IMG/VR virus record: IMGVR_UViG_3300032132_000760
Location: 1-28,048 of that record
Origin: a virus
Direction: 5' to 3' (one strand)
DNA length: 28,048 bases
A program made the translations under genes and the position numbers. Below, piece after piece: positions 256-27,732 of this stretch. Position 1 is the stretch's first letter, and every line of letters starts with the position of its first letter. The notes below the pieces were generated by a model, which saw only the letters and a list, made by a program, of their open reading frames with translations, was not told the origin of the DNA and ran no database searches.

Positions 256-490
256 CCCGCACACCTCCTCTCTTTAAAACAATTTTGCCCGCCGGAGAAA
301 GTACGACTCCAATCTCTCCGGGGTAAAGGAAAAAGGCCTCAAAATCTTCCTTGATTGCCTCAAGAGACTTCCGGGTTCCCACAAAAAAAGTCTGGTCCTT
401 CTCATCGCTCAGAAACATCCTATAGGTATGCCCGGGCCGATTGAGCGGAACCTTGCCGGGTATAGCCACCATTCTCCGAATCGGTATCAT
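167..490 (-). CDS. Hypothetical 107-aa protein
   Basis: Unrecognised protein. The chosen ATG at 490 overlaps the stop of the Sel1-repeat gene as ATGA, the usual sign of translational coupling; a longer in-frame start at 511 lies inside that gene and is less likely. Residues 20-73 (HTYRMF, FFVGTRKSLEAI, FFLYPGEIGVVL, GKIVLKRGG) look like a compact alpha/beta domain. The last 30 residues overlap the next gene and have a composition typical of an out-of-frame tail, so the gene may originally have ended near residue 75 and run on after loss of a stop. No signal peptide or transmembrane segment. Function unknown. Confidence 0.55.
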   Translation of the reverse strand: MIPIRRMVAIPGKVPLNRPGHTYRMFLSDEKDQTFFVGTRKSLEAIKEDFEAFFLYPGEIGVVLSPAGKIVLKRGGVRDVGLRKEPIAPARDGAFTDEPASLSSALR

Positions 491-915
491 GCGGTTTCCT
501 TTTCCGGGCACGCGGCCATCAAGTTCATCTGCCGCCCGTGTTGTTCCCCGACGAGGCGCTGGGATGAAATCTGCTCCTCGTCGTCGGTTTTATCGCGGGT
601 ATCTTCTAAAATCTGTAGCATCGTTTCGCGCCGAATCACCGCTAGCTCGTCGCCGGATTCAGCCGCCCGTGAGTACAGCCGCAGAGCTCGCGGGAAGTCG
701 GCTCGGACATTCCCCTCCCCGGACGTGAGGAGGTCGCCGAGGCGGGTATGGGCGCGGAGGTGGCCCATCGCTACGGCGCGTGTATACCACTCCACCGCCT
801 GTGGATAATCAATGGGGGCGTCGATGCCCATCTCGCTGACAAACCCCCGGGCAAAATTCTCCTCGGGAGTTTCAGCCTCTGAGAGTTCATTCGGATTCAA
901 GACTGCTACAGACAT
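487..915 (-). CDS. Sel1-like repeat protein
   Basis: 142-aa protein with one clear and one partial Sel1-like (TPR-related) repeat. Residues about 36-52 (DYPQAVEWYTRAVAMGH) and 73-90 (DFPRALRLYSRAAESGDE) show the A-x-x-W/L-Y-x-x-A-A-x-x-G pattern of these helical hairpins, linked by residues 53-67 (LRAHTRLGDLLTSGEG). Such repeats are protein-protein interaction scaffolds. No signal peptide, so it is predicted to act in the cytoplasm, unlike many secreted Sel1 proteins. The start at 915 has a strong GGAGGAG nine bases upstream. The C-terminal 45 residues are charged and not repeat-like. It lies in the leftward accessory cluster and is coupled by ATGA to the next gene. The partner is unknown; a regulatory or host-takeover role is only a guess. 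Confidence 0.75.
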   Translation of the reverse strand: MSVAVLNPNELSEAETPEENFARGFVSEMGIDAPIDYPQAVEWYTRAVAMGHLRAHTRLGDLLTSGEGNVRADFPRALRLYSRAAESGDELAVIRRETMLQILEDTRDKTDDEEQISSQRLVGEQHGRQMNLMAACPEKETA

Positions 916-1513: not shown

Positions 1514-2173
1514 CTAGGCGGCAACCACGCGTTTAATCGTCTGGCCGCGAAGGATGTTGCCGTTCCGGCCCCGGTATCCTTCATCTCTCAATCGTCTTCC
1601 GATGGCGCGGTAGCCAAGCCCCTCAGAGCGAAGAGCTTTGGCCCGGCGAATGGCGTTCTGCTCCTCTTCGCTCTCAACGAGCTTTCCGGCCTTGTGGCGG
1701 TATCCGAATGGCGCTTGGCCGCTGTATCGCCGGCCGCTCTTCTTCAATATCTCGAGGGCCCCAGCAGTTTTCTCGCCGACGAGACATTTGTAGTGTTCCG
1801 CAATGAGTGCCTGCACGCCGACGGTGATAAGTCCACTTGAAGTCTTGATTTCGATGAGGCCGGCGCCGACTGCATGAATCTCAATCCCTCGCCGAGCCCA
1901 CTCACGAAGCCAGTGGAGTGTGCCGGCCGTATCACGGCCGAGCCTGTCGATGTGGAATACAACTAGCGATTTGGAGCCAGAGGACTTCAGAGCCGCATCA
2001 ATTCGTTCGAATCGTGCAGAGTCTCCGCCGCTCACCCCGTCGTCCTCGACGACGGGCCCGGGTGCCCAGCCCTGCTTGGCGATGTAGTCGCCGATTGCGG
2101 CGCGTTGCTGTGTAAGGCTTACGGTGTTCTCTGTGGATTCAGCCGACCTGCGGATATAAACGGTGGTTTTCAT
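1514..2173 (-). CDS. Serine recombinase (resolvase/invertase family), small
   Basis: 219-aa site-specific DNA recombinase. Residues 1-130 are the resolvase catalytic domain: YIRRS at 6-10 gives Arg8 and nucleophile Ser10, and HIDRLGRD at 74-81 gives the Asp76/Arg77/Arg80 set typical of the family. Residues 140-219 (SGQAPFGYR, GYRAIGRRLRDEG, a terminal TIKRVV) form the recombinase-linker plus helix-turn-helix DNA-binding part seen in short phage and plasmid serine recombinases, without the long zinc/coiled-coil region of large serine integrases. All key residues are intact. Start ATG at 2173 has GGAGGAG six bases upstream and a sigma70-like promoter at 2227-2200. It lies directly behind a tyrosine integrase. 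It could resolve multimers, invert a segment, or provide a second integration route; which one is not shown by the sequence. Confidence 0.92.
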   Translation of the reverse strand: MKTTVYIRRSAESTENTVSLTQQRAAIGDYIAKQGWAPGPVVEDDGVSGGDSARFERIDAALKSSGSKSLVVFHIDRLGRDTAGTLHWLREWARRGIEIHAVGAGLIEIKTSSGLITVGVQALIAEHYKCLVGEKTAGALEILKKSGRRYSGQAPFGYRHKAGKLVESEEEQNAIRRAKALRSEGLGYRAIGRRLRDEGYRGRNGNILRGQTIKRVVAA

Positions 2174-2189
2174 GGTTGACTCCTCCTTT

Positions 2190-2227
2190 CACGCACTACA
2201 AAATAGCACAAAATAAGGAGAAGTCAA
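2190..2227 (-). promoter_or_regulatory. Promoter of the serine recombinase, with overlapping half-site
   Basis: Leftward promoter: -35 TTGACT (2227-2222), 16-base spacer, -10 TATTTT (2205-2200). The plus-strand sequence CACGCACTACAAA at 2190-2202 overlaps the -10 and start point and matches 9 of 13 positions of the half-site in the palindrome at 5978-6011, so it may be a weak operator. Confidence 0.6.
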
Positions 2228-2255: not shown

Positions 2256-2271
2256 CTTGCACTACATTATA
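2256..2271 (-). promoter_or_regulatory. TATAAT plus strong copy of the palindrome half-site
   Basis: A leftward TATAAT (2271-2266) just past the integrase stop overlaps CTTGCACTACATT (plus strand, 2256-2268), which matches 12 of 13 bases of the right half of the palindrome at 5978-6011. No good -35 is visible at normal spacing. It may be an operator or an integrase arm-type site rather than an independent promoter. Confidence 0.45.
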
Positions 2272-2283
2272 ACTATTCCATAA

Positions 2284-3402
2284 TCAGTGGTTTGCAATGG
2301 CTCTTTTTTCCGAAATCCGGTGCCCAAAGCCCCCCGGGAGAGGTACAAGCCCTTCTCTGTAGTGGCGGGCGTAAAGTTGAAAAGTTGTCTTGATGTCAGA
2401 ATGACCCATCCAGTGTTGTAATTTCTTTGGCGGTATCTCGTTCCTGAATGCATGAATAGTGGCAAACGTCCGCCGCAGAATCTGCGGCGACACGTGCGGA
2501 AGATTCGCGGCAAGAGTGACGCGGCGAATCGGCTTGTCTATCCCGTCGGGGTGATAAGGAAATATACGGGAGCGGGCATTCTTGTTGGGGCAAGCCAGGT
2601 ACCATTCTCTTAGCGCCAACAAAAAATCAGGAAAGAGGGGAAGCTCCCGTCGGCCCGAGTATGTCTTTGGCGTAATGAATCCAGCTTTCTGGTCCCAGTT
2701 TTTTCTGACCCGAAGCACTGGGCTTTTTTTGTTGAGTTCGCTTTTGACATCGCCCCATGTGAGCGCAAGCGCTTCATTACGGCGGAGCCCCTGCACGCAG
2801 TAGCAGATGAGCAATGCTCGGCTCGCAACTGTTGGGGGGAAAATTTCAAGACACGTTTCAATAAATAAATCCGCCTGAGTCTCTTCGAGTGCGTCTATAT
2901 TTTCTTTCTCATCCAAGGACACCGTATGGTCCCGCGTCACAGCTGGAATCTTAATTGCAATCGCTGGGTTATCGCTTAGCAAATTATCGTCCACGGCCGA
3001 CTCTAAGATGCTACTGATTTGGCTTTTGATATTTTTGGTTGTCTTGAAGGCCAAGCCTTTTTCTTTTCGTAAATTTTCCAAAAACGATTTTATCATTCGT
3101 TTGCCGAGAGCCTGAATTTTGATGTCGCCTAGTGCGGGGAGGATATGTTTTTCTAAGTTCGTTCGGTGAGCCCGCAGGGTGGAGGGTTTCATTCCACTTT
3201 TCTTGAAGAGTCGCTCAGCATATTCACCAAAGGTAACGCCGGACGGCTCCACAAAATCGCCGCGATATTTTTTGGACTGTGCATCGGCCTCGTAAGCCTC
3301 GGCCTCGGCTTTTGTGGGGAAAGTTTTCCAGATTTGCTTCCCGCCAGGCGTACGAACCATGCAAGTCCAGAGTTTGCTGCCTTTTCGCTTAAATATCGCC
3401 AT
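2284..3402 (-). CDS. int: Tyrosine-recombinase phage integrase
   Basis: 372-aa integrase that would insert and excise the phage genome at an att site. Residues 1-50 form an N-terminal arm-binding-like region (AIFKRKGSKLWTCMV, GGKQIWKTF), 56-150 the SAM-like core-binding domain (TFGEYAERLF, HILPALGDIKI), and 165-350 the catalytic domain. Catalytic residues: Arg207 in GLRRNEALALTWGD, Lys246 in PKTYSGRR, Arg310 in QILRRTFAT, His334 in WMGHSDIKTT and nucleophile Tyr344 in FQLYARHY. The usual HxLRHT motif reads QILRRT, so the box-II His is Gln308. Length is normal for the family. ATG at 3402 has GGGAGA upstream and the gene has its own promoter at 3522-3495. An attP is most likely near its 3' end (2174-2283) or 5' gap, but no core is identifiable. 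Confidence 0.95.
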   Translation of the reverse strand: MAIFKRKGSKLWTCMVRTPGGKQIWKTFPTKAEAEAYEADAQSKKYRGDFVEPSGVTFGEYAERLFKKSGMKPSTLRAHRTNLEKHILPALGDIKIQALGKRMIKSFLENLRKEKGLAFKTTKNIKSQISSILESAVDDNLLSDNPAIAIKIPAVTRDHTVSLDEKENIDALEETQADLFIETCLEIFPPTVASRALLICYCVQGLRRNEALALTWGDVKSELNKKSPVLRVRKNWDQKAGFITPKTYSGRRELPLFPDFLLALREWYLACPNKNARSRIFPYHPDGIDKPIRRVTLAANLPHVSPQILRRTFATIHAFRNEIPPKKLQHWMGHSDIKTTFQLYARHYREGLVPLPGGFGHRISEKRAIANH

Positions 3403-3658: not shown

Positions 3659-4747
3659 ATGAGCCCTAAAGACGAAAAACCAGAGACTGCCGGTGAGAAG
3701 GCTTTTAGGACAGCCCGGTCAAATATGGAAGGGGGCTGGATTCAGAGAAGTTATGACAAAGATGATTTGAGGGATTATCTCCAAGAAGAAAAATACGCCA
3801 ATGATAAAGAACTTGTCCGCGAAGGTTTGGGCGATAGGATGCGCCGGGTACGCGATGACTCTAATTTGACGGGCGTGCAGATGAGCGAACGGATGGGTTG
3901 CGATGGTTCCCAAATTTCAAAATGGGAAACCGGGACACAAGTCCCGAGTTGGCGAACTCTGGTGAAGTGGACGCGTGCCACGCGGCCCGAGCTCCTCTCG
4001 TATTTATTTCACGGCTCCGCTTGGATAGAAGAGACTGCCGGGAGTTTGGGGCCAGATTCCGAAGCACGCCACGTCGGGGTTGTTCATCTTCGCTCCAATG
4101 TCGCAGATGAATTAAGTCGCAAGCTATTCTCTGCTTTTATAGAGATACTTGACTCGTATCAAACTGTGTCAGGCAGAGCTCTCAAGAGTGGAACTCGAAC
4201 ACAATCCAACCTTAATCGTCTGCTCGAAGAGCACGGCGATACTATCCGATGGCAAGTAGACCATCCTCGGCGGAACGCGGGCCAATGGCTTAATGGGCTA
4301 CTGTTTTCGATGGCCCTCGACACGGATTCAGTGTTCCCGGTTTCCAATAAGGAAGACATCATAGTTGTCGATATGGCGGACAGGGATATTCGACCCGACT
4401 GTTTGTACGCGTTCCTCCCCGCATTGATAGGCGTGATACAACCGCGCATATTTGCTGTGGGCTCCGTTTATGAGTCCCTTCATATGGCGCTTGAAAGTCC
4501 GCCGAAAGATTCCGATAAATGGGAAAAAGAAACGTGGGATGATAGCCCGTGGCATATCGGCGGCAAGGATTTTCCTACACTGAGTCACACCCCGCGCCAT
4601 GTCGCAGTGTATGGAGTCGGGGCGGGCGCTCCCATCATGAGCCCTGATATGCACCGCCCGATGTTTGGCGGGACGCAACAGCAAATTCAAAACTGCCTCC
4701 TCGGAAGAGTAATCTACCGTGGCGGGCCACCGGCGATGAAGCCATAG
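3659..4747 (+). CDS. XRE-family repressor with long C-terminal region
   Basis: 362-aa putative lysogeny regulator. Residues 56-107 are a Cro/cI-type helix-turn-helix (LGDRMRRVRDDSNLTG, MSERMGCDGSQISKWETGT, PSWRTLVKW). A 55-residue charged extension precedes it. The C-terminal region (about 215-357) contains EDIIVVDMADRDIRPDCLYAF and ends LLGRVIYRGG, which resemble strands of the S24/LexA-like repressor domain, but no convincing Ser-Lys catalytic pair is visible, so self-cleavage is doubtful. The position between the divergent integrase promoter and the exported-protein genes, with possible operators upstream, fits a prophage repressor. ATG at 3659 has AAGGA six bases upstream. The next gene starts only 12 bases downstream, so the exported-protein genes are probably co-expressed in the lysogen. 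DNA binding is well supported; the S24 relationship is inference. Confidence 0.8.
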   Translation: MSPKDEKPETAGEKAFRTARSNMEGGWIQRSYDKDDLRDYLQEEKYANDKELVREGLGDRMRRVRDDSNLTGVQMSERMGCDGSQISKWETGTQVPSWRTLVKWTRATRPELLSYLFHGSAWIEETAGSLGPDSEARHVGVVHLRSNVADELSRKLFSAFIEILDSYQTVSGRALKSGTRTQSNLNRLLEEHGDTIRWQVDHPRRNAGQWLNGLLFSMALDTDSVFPVSNKEDIIVVDMADRDIRPDCLYAFLPALIGVIQPRIFAVGSVYESLHMALESPPKDSDKWEKETWDDSPWHIGGKDFPTLSHTPRHVAVYGVGAGAPIMSPDMHRPMFGGTQQQIQNCLLGRVIYRGGPPAMKP

Positions 4748-5753: not shown

Positions 5754-5945
5754 TTAACTGGGCGTGCTCTGTTTTTCCAGCCACTCGCGGAGCTCATCCT
5801 CGTTGAAGCGATATCCCACCGCTAGCTTGTAATTGGGGATTTCGTTACGCTTACAGAGCTCATAAACCGTCTTTTTTGAGCAACCAAGCCACCCCGCCAC
5901 ATCCACAGCAGTGAGCAAGCTCTTTATTTCATTATGTTTACGCAT
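5754..5945 (-). CDS. Excisionase-like MerR-type helix-turn-helix protein
   Basis: 63-aa DNA-binding protein of the HTH_17/excisionase type: residues 10-57 read LLTAVDVAGWLGCSKKTVYE, then a basic strand (IPNYKLAVGYRF), then the NEDELREWLEKQ helix typical of these proteins. They bind bent DNA as excision factors or small regulators. It is leftward, convergent with the accessory operon and divergent from the ribbon-helix-helix gene, with a palindrome in the shared upstream region. No strong ribosome site precedes the ATG at 5945, so it may be weakly translated or leaderless. Whether it works with the integrase or the serine recombinase is unknown. Confidence 0.8.
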   Translation of the reverse strand: MRKHNEIKSLLTAVDVAGWLGCSKKTVYELCKRNEIPNYKLAVGYRFNEDELREWLEKQSTPS

Positions 5946-5977
5946 TTAAAGTGTCCCAACGGGCTATTATTCAAATA

Positions 5978-6011
5978 CTTGCAGGACAGTGAAGATATAC
6001 TGTAGTGCAAG
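5978..6011. promoter_or_regulatory. 34-bp palindromic operator between excisionase-like and RHH genes
   Basis: Inverted repeat with half-site CTTGCA-nn-ACAGT: left half 5978-5990, right half 5999-6011, 8-base centre. Eleven of 13 arm positions pair, and the two mismatches sit between the blocks. TATACT, a possible rightward -10, lies at the centre. The right half recurs at 2256-2268 (12/13) and weakly at 2190-2202 (9/13). The rest of the 5946-6087 gap is AT-rich with no ORF. Confidence 0.7.
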
Positions 6012-6087
6012 GCTTGTCAACTAATTTCATAATATGTAAGGTTTGGGGGCTGAAGCAGAACCTTATCGCCTAGAGGGGGGATTGGTT

Positions 6088-6381
6088 ATGGCATCGGAGG
6101 AGAAATTATCCCGTGGGATTGGCGCTCTCAACGGTGGAAAGCGCCGAGGAAGACCGCCACGCGCAAAGGCGAGCAACCTGAGCGCCGTCTATTCCATCCG
6201 GTTCAACCAAGAGCACCTAAAGCTTATCAAGGCGGCCGCTGTGCTTGCGGATAAAGAAGTGAGCGCCTACATCCGCGAGGCCGCAGTCAAGATGGCGCAA
6301 CTTTCAATCGGCAAAGAAGCCAGAGCATCGTATCTTAAAGGACTCAAGGGCGGCGTCGACGACTTTAAAAACTTCTCTTAG
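6088..6381 (+). CDS. Ribbon-helix-helix protein with AT-hook-like arm
   Basis: 97-aa putative DNA-binding regulator. Residues 18-27 (KRRGRPPRAK) are an AT-hook-like basic arm for the minor groove. Residues 33-70 (AVYSIRFNQEHLKLIKAAAV, VSAYIREAAVKMAQ) match a ribbon-helix-helix fold: a beta strand followed by two helices, as in Arc/CopG and DUF1778-type proteins. The ATG at 6088 has a G-rich site (GGGGGGA) seven bases upstream; an earlier TTG at 6043 is less likely. It is divergent from the excisionase-like gene across the 34-bp palindrome, which it may bind, and is followed by a strong terminator, so it forms a single-gene unit. It could be an early switch regulator; no toxin partner is adjacent. 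Confidence 0.75.
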   Translation: MASEEKLSRGIGALNGGKRRGRPPRAKASNLSAVYSIRFNQEHLKLIKAAAVLADKEVSAYIREAAVKMAQLSIGKEARASYLKGLKGGVDDFKNFS

Positions 6382-8067: not shown

Positions 8068-9412
8068 TCTAACGCTTCCTTTTAACTACCAGCCCCGCGA
8101 CTATCAGCGCCCTTTCTGGACGGCTATGGCGCAGGGGGCAAAGCGAGCCATGCTCGTTTGGCATCGTCGGAGCGGCAAAGACAAAACCGTCCTTAATTTT
8201 CTTGTCTCTCGCGCCTTCGAGCGAACGGGCACGTACTTTTATTTCCTTCCGACGTATCGTCAGGGAAAGAAAATCATATGGGACGGCTATGACAAGTCGG
8301 GCTTTAAGTTCTTGGACCATGTCCCTCATGATATCCGCGTTCCTGGCGGAACCAACGAAACTGAAATGCAAGTCGCCATATACAATCGCCTCGGCGAAGT
8401 CTCCATCATCCAGTTTGTTGCTTCCGATAGCATCGACAGCCTAGTCGGCACGAATCCCGTGGGCGTGGTGTTCAGCGAATTCAGTCTAATGAAGCGCAAG
8501 GCTTGGGACTTGATGCGTCCAGTGCTCAGAGAGAACGAAGGCTGGGCTGTGATGATTATGACGCCCCGAGGCAAGAACCACGCGTTCAAGATGTGGGAGA
8601 GGGTGCAAGTCAGTAAGAATTGGTTCACTTCTCTCCTCACCGTACACGACACGGCGCTCCCCAACGGGGAGCCAGTTGTCTCAGAGGACATGATTCAAGA
8701 AGACCGAGAAGAAGGCATGGCCGAGGAGGACGTGCAGTCCGAGTATTTTTGCTCGTGGGAAGGTTCAGTCGTTGGCGCTTATTACACGTCTGCTTTTGGA
8801 ATCCTCGACAAGCGCGATGCAATCAAGGATGTGGCCTGGGATACGGATAAGCCGGTTCACACGGCGTGGGACATTGGACACGACACCACTTCAATCTTCT
8901 TCTTCCAATTAGATGGAAACCAACCTCGCTGGATTGATTATTTTGAATCACATGATGAAGGGCTAGAGTTTTACGCAAAGATGTTGCGGGACAAGCCATA
9001 TGTGTATGGCACGCACCTTGGGCCTTGGGATATTCGCCATAGAGAATTTACAAGTTCAGCCTCTAGGATAAGCCGTGCCGCATCGCTCGGTATTCACTTC
9101 GTTGCAGTTCGCAAGCTTCCGATTGACGAAGGCATCAACGCTGTACGTTCGTTGCTGGTGAAGTCCGTATTTGATTCGATTGAATGCGCTCGCGGGATTG
9201 ATTGCCTCAGAAATTACCGGCGTACCTTTAATGAAGACTTGCAAGTTTTTGGCAAGAGCCCCGTCCACGATTGGGCCAGTCATGGGGCGGACTCCTTCCG
9301 CACTGCGGCAGTCGGCTTGGCGGACGGACAAGTCACTGAAGAAATGGGAACGGAACGGCAAACAACGGCTGATTGCAATTTTAATGTTTACGACTATGCA
9401 GAGGTTGGATAA
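8060..9412 (+). CDS. terL: Terminase large subunit
   Basis: 450-aa packaging motor: ATPase plus nuclease. Residues 31-42 (MLVWHRRSGKDK) are the Walker A of the Terminase_6 family (HRRSGKDKT). Residues 135-140 (GVVFSE) are the Walker B position, with Ser in place of the usual Asp before the catalytic Glu140. Residues 165-171 (MIMTPRG) are the coupling motif. The C-terminal RNase H-like nuclease has Asp271 (AWDIGHDTTS), Asp324 (GPWDIRH) and Asp404/Asp411 (HDWASHGADSF). Length is typical of short podovirus terminases. Start is GTG at 8060, inside the previous gene; homologues begin with a similar PFNYQPRDYQRPFW. It is followed without a gap by the Pro/Ala-rich gene. Confidence 0.97.
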   Translation: MTNLTLPFNYQPRDYQRPFWTAMAQGAKRAMLVWHRRSGKDKTVLNFLVSRAFERTGTYFYFLPTYRQGKKIIWDGYDKSGFKFLDHVPHDIRVPGGTNETEMQVAIYNRLGEVSIIQFVASDSIDSLVGTNPVGVVFSEFSLMKRKAWDLMRPVLRENEGWAVMIMTPRGKNHAFKMWERVQVSKNWFTSLLTVHDTALPNGEPVVSEDMIQEDREEGMAEEDVQSEYFCSWEGSVVGAYYTSAFGILDKRDAIKDVAWDTDKPVHTAWDIGHDTTSIFFFQLDGNQPRWIDYFESHDEGLEFYAKMLRDKPYVYGTHLGPWDIRHREFTSSASRISRAASLGIHFVAVRKLPIDEGINAVRSLLVKSVFDSIECARGIDCLRNYRRTFNEDLQVFGKSPVHDWASHGADSFRTAAVGLADGQVTEEMGTERQTTADCNFNVYDYAEVG

Positions 9413-25008: not shown

Positions 25009-27732
25009 ATGGTTCTTCAAACAACACTGTCAAAAGCTACTGCGACGGGGAATGGCTCGACAACGGACTTCACACTTGCTTGTCGAGTCATCGATAGTTC
25101 GCACGTAAAAGTTTACGTCAACGACGTCCTTCAAACGATTAGTACGCACTACATAATACCAACTAGTTTGCCGGCGAACTCCATCACCGTTCGCTTTAAT
25201 AGTGCGCCAGCAAGCGCGGCCGCAATATTTCTCAAGCGCCTCGTCCCGCTCACGCAACTCTACGACTACGTAGAGAACGCAAAATTTTCCGCAGATTCCC
25301 ACGAAGCCGCTTTAGATTTGAACATGATGTCGACTCAGCAAGTTGACGAGTCGAGCGCTCGCTCCCTCAAGTTTGGGTTGAGCTCAGCGTTTTCGGACGT
25401 GACGTTCCCCGAGTTAACGGGCAATGCGAACAAGTCGCTAGTCGTTAACGCAAGCGCGAACGGAATCCTATGGGAGACTACTCCAGCCGCCACGTTGCTG
25501 GATGCTAAAGGTGATTTGCTCGCTGCTTCTGCGGACAACGAAATTGCCCGAGTGGGGCCGGTGGGTTCTGACGGAGCCTACCTCAAGGCAGACTCGGGCG
25601 CGTCGGTTGGCGTCTCTTGGGCCACGCTCCCGGTAACGTCGTATACGAACACAGGTGACAACCGCGTTTTGACAAGCGGGGGAACCACCGTCATCAACGG
25701 TGAGAGCGGACTGACTTTCGACGGCACAACCTTGGTTTCGCCTCGACTGCAAATTGCGAACGATGGCCTTATTGGAAGCGCGGGTGATGTCGATGCAATG
25801 ACGATAAGCTCTGCTGGAATCGTCACCGTTAAATCAGGAATGCAGTTCAACGACGACATCCAGCTTATCTTTGGCAGTTCTCCTAATTCAGACATTGCCG
25901 TCAAGTATGACGAGTCTACAGGCGATGCGCTTGCAATCGGAGCCAACCTAGACGTCGACTTCAAGGTGCACTGGTACGAAGACCAGCACGATGACGCTGG
26001 GGACGGATGGGAGATGAAGCTCTCCAACCATGTGATGACTTGGGGGAATGACTTAGCGTCTAAAAATACTTACGAGCCCCATTTTACGGTAACCCCGAAT
26101 GCTACAGCCTCTAATTCTACGGTGGCGTTTTTGGGCAATGTAACTATCGCTAGCGATTTATCTCTAACGGGCTCAAACAAGGAACTGCGTTTCTACGAAG
26201 CCGCGAACTATGTTGGCTTCGAGGCGCCCTCTCTCTCGGCAAATCAAATCTGGGTTCTTCCTGCCGCAGACGGCTCAGCGTCGCAAGTCCTGAAAACGGA
26301 TGGCAGTGGAAATCTTGGATGGGTTTCAACAGCGTCGGGCGGAAGCATCGCCGGAAGCAACACGCAAGTTCAGTACAACAACTCTGGTTCTTTTGGAGCC
26401 AGCGCTAATCTTACATTCAACGGCACGACCCTCACGGCGGCAGGGTTCGCCGGACCTTTGACGGGCAACGTGACGGGAAACTGTAGTGGCACGGCTGGTG
26501 TCGCAACTGCCGTGACAATCACGGACAACGAAAGCAGTAACGAAGAGAACGCCATCATCTTCACTTCTGGTGGAGACCTAGATGGCGGGAATTTAGGGCT
26601 GGAGAGTGACGGAGACTTAAAATATAACCCTTCTTCGGGCACGCTAACCTCCACCGTTTTTGTAGGGGCGTTAACGGGTACCGCCGCGACAGCCACCGCC
26701 CTGGCATCAGGCCGGACAATCGGTTGCACTGGTGACGTTGTCTGGACGTCTGCATCCTTCGACGGTAGTGGCAATGTGACAGGCACCGCCACAATTCAGG
26801 CGAACAGCGTCGATTTAACCAGCCACACGACCGGAAATTACGTTGCAACAATTACAGGCGGAACGGGAATCACTTCGAGTGCCGGAACGAGTGGAGAAGG
26901 AACAACGCACTCGCTCTCGGTGGACGCCGCTCAGACTCAGATTACGAGTGTTGGGACAATCACATCATTGGATGCAGATGCGCTGACCGTAGACGATGTT
27001 GGAATCGATGGCGATACCATCACTTTTCAGGATGGTGAAACGATTCTCCGCAACGCCACTGACCAGATGTTCTTTAAGACCAATGGAAGTACCTCGGGCG
27101 GCAAGTGGCAATTTAATCTGGGTGCATCGAATTATAACGCACTGATGATAAAACAGACGGGCGATGGTATTGGCGAAACAATTTTTAACGAGGACAAAGT
27201 AGACCGAGACTTTCTGGTGAAAACGGATGACGTCGGCGGAACCGGATACGGACTCCTCACGATTAATGGCGGCTCAAACAACATGGCCATCAATGGTGAT
27301 GTCAGTGGCGTCGCTCCATTCAGAATTACAGGCTCTTGGACTCCGACAAGCCAGCCGGGTGGATTGTTGCTGATTGACGGCACAATGAATCCCTCTGCTG
27401 GCCAATATGCTAGAGGTGGATTGCAATGCAACCCCACCCTCGTGGAAGCGGGGTCAGGCACTCATGGATATTTAGCGGGTGCTTGGTTCGACATGACGGT
27501 CACCAATGGCTCGGCAACAACCACCACGGCGGCAACTGTCCAAATTACTGGCTTTACTGCCGGGGCTGGAACTACGAATGCGGCCAGCTTGTACATCGAT
27601 GGTCCGCCCGCCTCTGCCACAAACAATTACGCCGTATGGGTAGACGCAGGAAACGTGCGAATCGATTCGCTTGCAGGTAGCGGGTCCAGAACCGTTGTAG
27701 CAGATGCAAACGGGGTGCTTTCCGCACCATAA
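25009..27732 (+). CDS. Tail fibre protein (T7 gp17-like N-terminus, repeat-rich shaft)
   Basis: 907-aa receptor-binding fibre. Residues 1-130 are the T7 fibre N-terminal domain (KATATGNGSTTDFTLACRVI; VYVNDVLQT; IFLKRLVPLTQLYDYVENAK) that docks to the tail. The rest is a Gly/Thr/Ser/Ala-rich shaft with modules around LTFxGTTLxxxxF: residues about 230-250, 464-490 and 534-565 (LTGNVTGNCSGTAGVATAV; LTGTAATATALASG). QVQYNNSGSFGAS and DGETILRNATDQMF resemble fibres I know from aquatic phages. No peptidase-S74 chaperone, endosialidase or C-type-lectin (DGR variable region) tail is seen; the C-terminus ends WVDAGNVRIDSLAGSGS and a short tail. The ATG at 25009 is two bases after the previous stop. 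Receptor unknown. Confidence 0.92.
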   Translation: MVLQTTLSKATATGNGSTTDFTLACRVIDSSHVKVYVNDVLQTISTHYIIPTSLPANSITVRFNSAPASAAAIFLKRLVPLTQLYDYVENAKFSADSHEAALDLNMMSTQQVDESSARSLKFGLSSAFSDVTFPELTGNANKSLVVNASANGILWETTPAATLLDAKGDLLAASADNEIARVGPVGSDGAYLKADSGASVGVSWATLPVTSYTNTGDNRVLTSGGTTVINGESGLTFDGTTLVSPRLQIANDGLIGSAGDVDAMTISSAGIVTVKSGMQFNDDIQLIFGSSPNSDIAVKYDESTGDALAIGANLDVDFKVHWYEDQHDDAGDGWEMKLSNHVMTWGNDLASKNTYEPHFTVTPNATASNSTVAFLGNVTIASDLSLTGSNKELRFYEAANYVGFEAPSLSANQIWVLPAADGSASQVLKTDGSGNLGWVSTASGGSIAGSNTQVQYNNSGSFGASANLTFNGTTLTAAGFAGPLTGNVTGNCSGTAGVATAVTITDNESSNEENAIIFTSGGDLDGGNLGLESDGDLKYNPSSGTLTSTVFVGALTGTAATATALASGRTIGCTGDVVWTSASFDGSGNVTGTATIQANSVDLTSHTTGNYVATITGGTGITSSAGTSGEGTTHSLSVDAAQTQITSVGTITSLDADALTVDDVGIDGDTITFQDGETILRNATDQMFFKTNGSTSGGKWQFNLGASNYNALMIKQTGDGIGETIFNEDKVDRDFLVKTDDVGGTGYGLLTINGGSNNMAINGDVSGVAPFRITGSWTPTSQPGGLLLIDGTMNPSAGQYARGGLQCNPTLVEAGSGTHGYLAGAWFDMTVTNGSATTTTAATVQITGFTAGAGTTNAASLYIDGPPASATNNYAVWVDAGNVRIDSLAGSGSRTVVADANGVLSAP

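Follow-up and report, generated by a model that had tools for sequence, protein, structure and literature searches.

Fold-back protection is known from the transposase genes of IS10 and IS50. The excisionases 186 Apl and P2 Cox also regulate transcription, and excisionases of the fold discussed here occupy direct repeats or form head-to-tail filaments, not a spaced inverted repeat. In phages with a leftward int gene, attP often lies just beyond the int 3' end. The usual distance between RHH dimers is 8-12 bp, and the NikR operator has a two-turn spacing.

Some of these regulators have been described closely. RA3 MobC is an RHH autorepressor whose imperfect palindrome lies between the -35 and -10 elements (PMC4175270). 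The RelB dimer site, TTGTAATGACAT, is of the TG...CA type, and no extra spacing is tolerated between sites (PMC2812701). The excisionase RdfS binds attP as well as the promoter of its own gene, where it is a self-repressor, and its sites show no clear consensus (PMC11963761). Controls other than fold-back protection are described in PMC8450116.

The phage and its early genes

The locus compared here with these systems lies in IMGVR_UViG_3300032132_000760, a linear virus contig of 28,048 bases that was analysed as a whole (the window). Its left end is of temperate type, carrying serine recombinase, tyrosine integrase, XRE-type repressor, excisionase-like and RHH-like genes, and its structural genes are those of a podovirus (terminase, portal, major head protein and a T7-type tail-fibre N-terminus). 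The portal is of the Pelagibacter-phage/VP2/epsilon15/BPP-1 kind, at an identity of 40% or less. The early genes are as follows.

1514-2173, minus strand: small serine recombinase, 219 aa (PF00239, 2.2e-19; phrog_95 / phrog_125)
2284-3402, minus strand: tyrosine integrase, 372 aa (PF00589, PF22022, PF14659; phrog_1, 7.7e-57)
3659-4747, plus strand: HTH (XRE-type) repressor-like protein, 362 aa (PF13560, 1.3e-9; phrog_2328)
5754-5945, minus strand: excisionase-like HTH_17 protein, 63 aa (PF12728, 6.7e-14; TIGR01764; phrog_66 excisionase, 1.7e-9)
6088-6381, plus strand: RHH-like protein, 97 aa, ATG at 6088 with GAGGGGGG upstream (sub-threshold profile matches)

Elsewhere at this end, the gene at 487-915 (minus strand) encodes Sel1 repeats (PF08238, 4.8e-12), and positions 1183-1305 hold 48-bp tandem units within a minus-strand ORF (1165-1476), giving the repeated C-terminal peptide EPVKT.VAPTYEDK.

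Searches of viral contigs with the RHH, excisionase and serine recombinase proteins returned no relatives, and the integrase returned one locus at 28% identity; the repressor gave none in genome contigs. Portal alignments recovered loci at 30-40% identity, 80 of them viral and 6 genomic, and none of the early genes was found in them. There was no match in viral contigs to the exact dyad patterns (two DNA patterns), none in phages or plasmids to the RHH-like protein by tblastn, and none in phages to the intergenic DNA by blastn. This absence of relatives is neutral for the sites described below, speaking neither for nor against them.

The dyad between the excisionase-like and RHH-like genes

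An earlier note on this DNA had described an inverted repeat with an 8-base centre and 11/13 arm pairs, and direct reading gave the same figures: positions 5978-6011 read CTTGCAGGACAGT-GAAGATAT-ACTGTAGTGCAAG, with arms that pair at 11 of 13 positions around an 8-bp centre. Its placement was likewise borne out, in a 142-bp gap from which the excisionase-like gene runs leftward and the RHH-like gene rightward, the start codon of the latter lying 76 bp beyond the dyad end.

5978-6011, no strand: 34-bp dyad, proposed operator, with arms CTTGCAGGACAGT and ACTGTAGTGCAAG
5992-6020, minus strand: predicted promoter of the excisionase-like gene, TTGACA-17-TATCTT (10/12), the best-scoring near the dyad
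5966-5993, minus strand: alternative leftward promoter, TTCACT-16-AATAAT (9/12), with its first hexamer within the dyad

The spacer of TTGACA-17-TATCTT is taken up by the right arm of the dyad, and the expected transcription start falls under the left arm, which is where a repressor usually lies. For the RHH-like gene, the promoter scan found no rightward consensus promoter, and a TATACT within the dyad has no -35. The arm centres are 21 bp apart, equal to two helix turns, and the core of the half-site, TGCANNACA, forms part of a TG...CA-type dyad. Two familiar elements were considered and rejected: a LexA (SOS) box needs CTG-N10-CAG, whereas the dyad has CAG-N10-CTG in the opposite orientation, and an intrinsic terminator is contradicted by the lack of a T run after the dyad, which is also absent from the terminator-like sites.

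Across the whole window, 17 dyads of equal grade (spacer 0-20) were seen against 7.65 +/- 4.1 in shuffles, and because such dyads are common window-wide the dyad alone is weak evidence. The chance of one within the gap is P 0.019, or 0.002 if the spacer is fixed at 8 bp, a choice made post hoc.

Our main reading, which as a whole we hold at a probability of roughly 0.42, is that the dyad would act as a transcriptional operator in the divergent excisionase-like/RHH-like promoter region. A phage protein encoded beside it, RHH being likelier than excisionase, would bind both arms on one helix face and block leftward TTGACA-17-TATCTT, which the dyad overlaps from the spacer through the start site. 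The same regulator may perhaps tune its own rightward (RHH) transcription, and the lone half-site in the int-recombinase gap (2256-2268) would be a weaker secondary target. From the sequence we infer protein binding, the identity of the binder and repression; the dyad itself, its overlap with a predicted promoter, a non-chance copy in a second intergene and the flanking DNA-binding genes are observed. Support for an operator comes from the short gap that holds the dyad, with a gene for a probable DNA-binding protein on either side, from the low in-gap chance, from the predicted promoter lying across it, from the recurrence of its right half in the int-recombinase gap and from its TG...CA-type core; the commonplace dyads of the window, the unenriched 13-mer, the sub-threshold RHH call and the lack of a consensus promoter for the RHH gene count against it. 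The dyad is real and probably serves the excisionase-RHH promoter region as an operator, and one further half-site is credible; such a putative operator is an ordinary kind of element.

Half-site copies and candidate binding proteins

Exact matches to the 13-mer CTTGCANNACAGT occur in the whole window only at the two dyad arms, and matches with one mismatch at 2256-2268 and at 8360-8372, within the terL CDS. At up to two mismatches the degenerate 13-mer was matched 5 times in the window against 5.8 expected, and so by itself is unenriched.

2256-2274, minus strand: lone copy of the right half with adjoining TATA, AGTTATAATGTAGTGCAAG, matching 5993-6011 at 17/19
2190-2202, minus strand: weak half-site match (9/13), within the 2176-2227 inverted repeat

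For the right-half copy at 2256-2268 we obtained the same match level as reported before, 12/13. A half-site of this quality is expected by chance in the remaining 1.16 kb of intergenic sequence with P = 0.0013 (shuffles), and appeared in 0/3000 shuffles of the int-recombinase gap. The longer 17/19 match at 2256-2274 compares with 12-14/19 for the best of 60 shuffled windows and was reached in 0/150 intergene-to-intergene comparisons. What beats chance is the specific right half, not the degenerate motif. No mirrored partner was found for the 2256 copy. The leftward -10 previously reported at each minor copy was also recovered, as an adjoining TATAAT at 2271-2266 (minus strand, with no -35 at normal spacing) and a TATTTT at 2205-2200.

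The 2190-2202 match stands at 9/13 as first described, a level matched by many sites in coding DNA, and its proposed role as a third site is given up, the separate inverted repeat being the better explanation. The idea of a shared regulator site is supported in part: position and the 17/19 copy favour a link from the excisionase promoter to the gap between int and the serine recombinase, and the 2190 copy drops out. The int-repressor gap has no match above 9/13 to the half-site, which makes the XRE-type repressor a poor candidate for autoregulation through this motif. The heptamer GTAGTGC occurs only four times in the window, each time after TATNNT and once within the tail-fibre CDS, and the fourth copy of the TATNNTGTAGTGC pattern, TATTATGTAGTGC at 25146-25158 (minus strand), was judged chance coding in the T7-type tail-fibre N-terminal domain.

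A coincidence of an unremarkable dyad and a random second match would agree with the window-wide counts of dyads and motifs, both near expectation. However, the in-gap P of 0.019 and the copy P of 0.0013 argue otherwise, as does the location of both sites in intergenic DNA beside predicted promoters, and we regard chance as improbable.

The half-sites had also been proposed as arm-type sites of the tyrosine integrase, whose gene adjoins the 2256 and 2190 copies; these lie in direct orientation 66 bp apart in the int-recombinase gap, the 2190 copy being weak. Arm sites are expected to cluster at attP, but the sole mirrored and best copy is an inverted pair at a promoter, 3.7 kb away from the int 3' end. 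No copy lies in the int-repressor gap, and the 2190 copy is accounted for by a hairpin. The lone copies may be integrase arm sites, the dyad fits that role poorly, and we do not keep the proposal for the dyad; overall, this explanation appears very unlikely. Sites of res or inversion type for the serine recombinase are to us a highly improbable explanation too. Here the inverted 17/19 copies at 5993-6011 and 2256-2274, which flank int, repressor and excisionase with the serine recombinase gene adjoining, could bound an invertible 3.7-kb segment, and the 34-bp site with its arms of ~12 bp is similar in size to res subsite II. However, inversion would split the excisionase promoter, and the 2256 copy is not a two-armed crossover site, since it has no mirrored partner. 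No inverted form was seen, the searches having returned no relative with these genes.

If the dyad is an operator, the neighbouring proteins are the candidates to bind it. By its profile match, the excisionase-like protein is a member of the excisionase DNA-binding family (TIGR01764 'excise', 42.2 bits vs a cut-off of 28.8). The RHH-like protein has NikA-like/DUF6290/TacA1 and RelB matches, all below the curated cut-offs (Pfam/NCBIfam); its single-sequence model, with two RHH-like helices, is of low confidence, and it had no match in the PDB. Near its N-terminus, ahead of the RHH region, is an AT-hook-like KRRGRPPR (6121-6165).

Binding of both the dyad and the int-recombinase gap by the excisionase-like protein, as controller of its own promoter and as excision factor at an int-adjacent attP, is a possible though rather unlikely alternative. 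The above-cut-off TIGR01764 match favours it, and RdfS provides a precedent of an excisionase on attP and its own self-repressed promoter (PMC11963761). The region just past the int 3' end is the 2174-2283 gap, which contains the 2256 copy. However, no tRNA was found in the window to place attP, and the excisionase fold prefers direct repeats or filaments, whereas the dyad is a spaced inverted repeat. The locus resembles RdfS, 186 Apl and P2 Cox in that the promoter of the excisionase-like gene itself has a candidate site and a second one lies next to int, but those proteins bind direct repeats or extended tracts, in contrast to the main site here.

An RHH binder is preferred for the operator because the excisionase fold takes direct repeats or tracts and RHH autorepressors commonly use imperfect palindromes. 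As with RA3 MobC, E. coli RelB, CopG and NikR, whose operators are imperfect inverted repeats over a promoter with the RHH gene adjacent and cores of the TG...CA type, the inverted repeat here lies by position over a promoter beside an RHH-like gene, on the predicted excisionase promoter. The two-turn spacing of NikR resembles that of the dyad, whereas the arms are more narrowly spaced in MobC and RelB than the 21 bp seen here, and the RHH assignment is sub-threshold. The preference is not strong, since that assignment is below cut-off, the model is poor and the 21-bp spacing would need a tethered tetramer.

The inverted repeat over the serine recombinase start

The int-recombinase gap holds two further features.

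2176-2227, minus strand: inverted repeat TTGACTTCTCCTT/AAGGAGGAGTCAA, in which read-through RNA is predicted to pair the serine recombinase Shine-Dalgarno
2200-2227, minus strand: predicted promoter proximal to the serine recombinase, TTGACT-16-TATTTT, whose second hexamer is preceded by TG and whose start point is a prediction

On the minus strand, UUGACUUCUCCUU pairs with AAGGAGGAGUCAA, which includes the Shine-Dalgarno of the serine recombinase. The predicted fold has an energy of -25.3 kcal/mol vs -10.7 +/- 2.6 in shuffles (z -5.6, 0/200), and the hairpin is still predicted in a longer leader. The Shine-Dalgarno region is 1% unpaired in this predicted fold, the lowest among 30 window genes (next 17%), and the probability of such a repeat by chance in the 110-bp gap (2174-2283) is 0.0025. 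RNA from the proximal promoter, given its inferred start inside the repeat, lacks the left arm and leaves the Shine-Dalgarno open in the fold. Read-through transcripts thus appear to hide the Shine-Dalgarno, and the mRNA from the proximal promoter would escape. On these predictions, the read-through hairpin is a better supported regulatory feature than the operator. From a promoter at 2271, the recombinase mRNA would be translated poorly, so direct control by the 2256 copy is less likely.

The predicted hairpin is like the fold-back protection of IS10 and IS50, in which an inverted repeat lies over the promoter and only read-through RNA hides the Shine-Dalgarno. However, IS10 and IS50 protect transposase genes, whereas the gene here is a phage serine recombinase. 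A combined scheme, in which one RHH regulator governs excisionase and serine recombinase while the hairpin guards against integrase read-through, such that the two recombinases would never be made from the same transcript, strikes us as quite improbable.

If the operator reading is true, the phage, whose lineage has no studied close relative, would carry a compact, testable circuit in which the control of excision is tied to a second recombinase. The read-through hairpin, if true, would carry over to a phage serine recombinase the kind of protection that is known for insertion sequences, and would offer a reason why two recombinase genes arranged head to tail need not be co-expressed.
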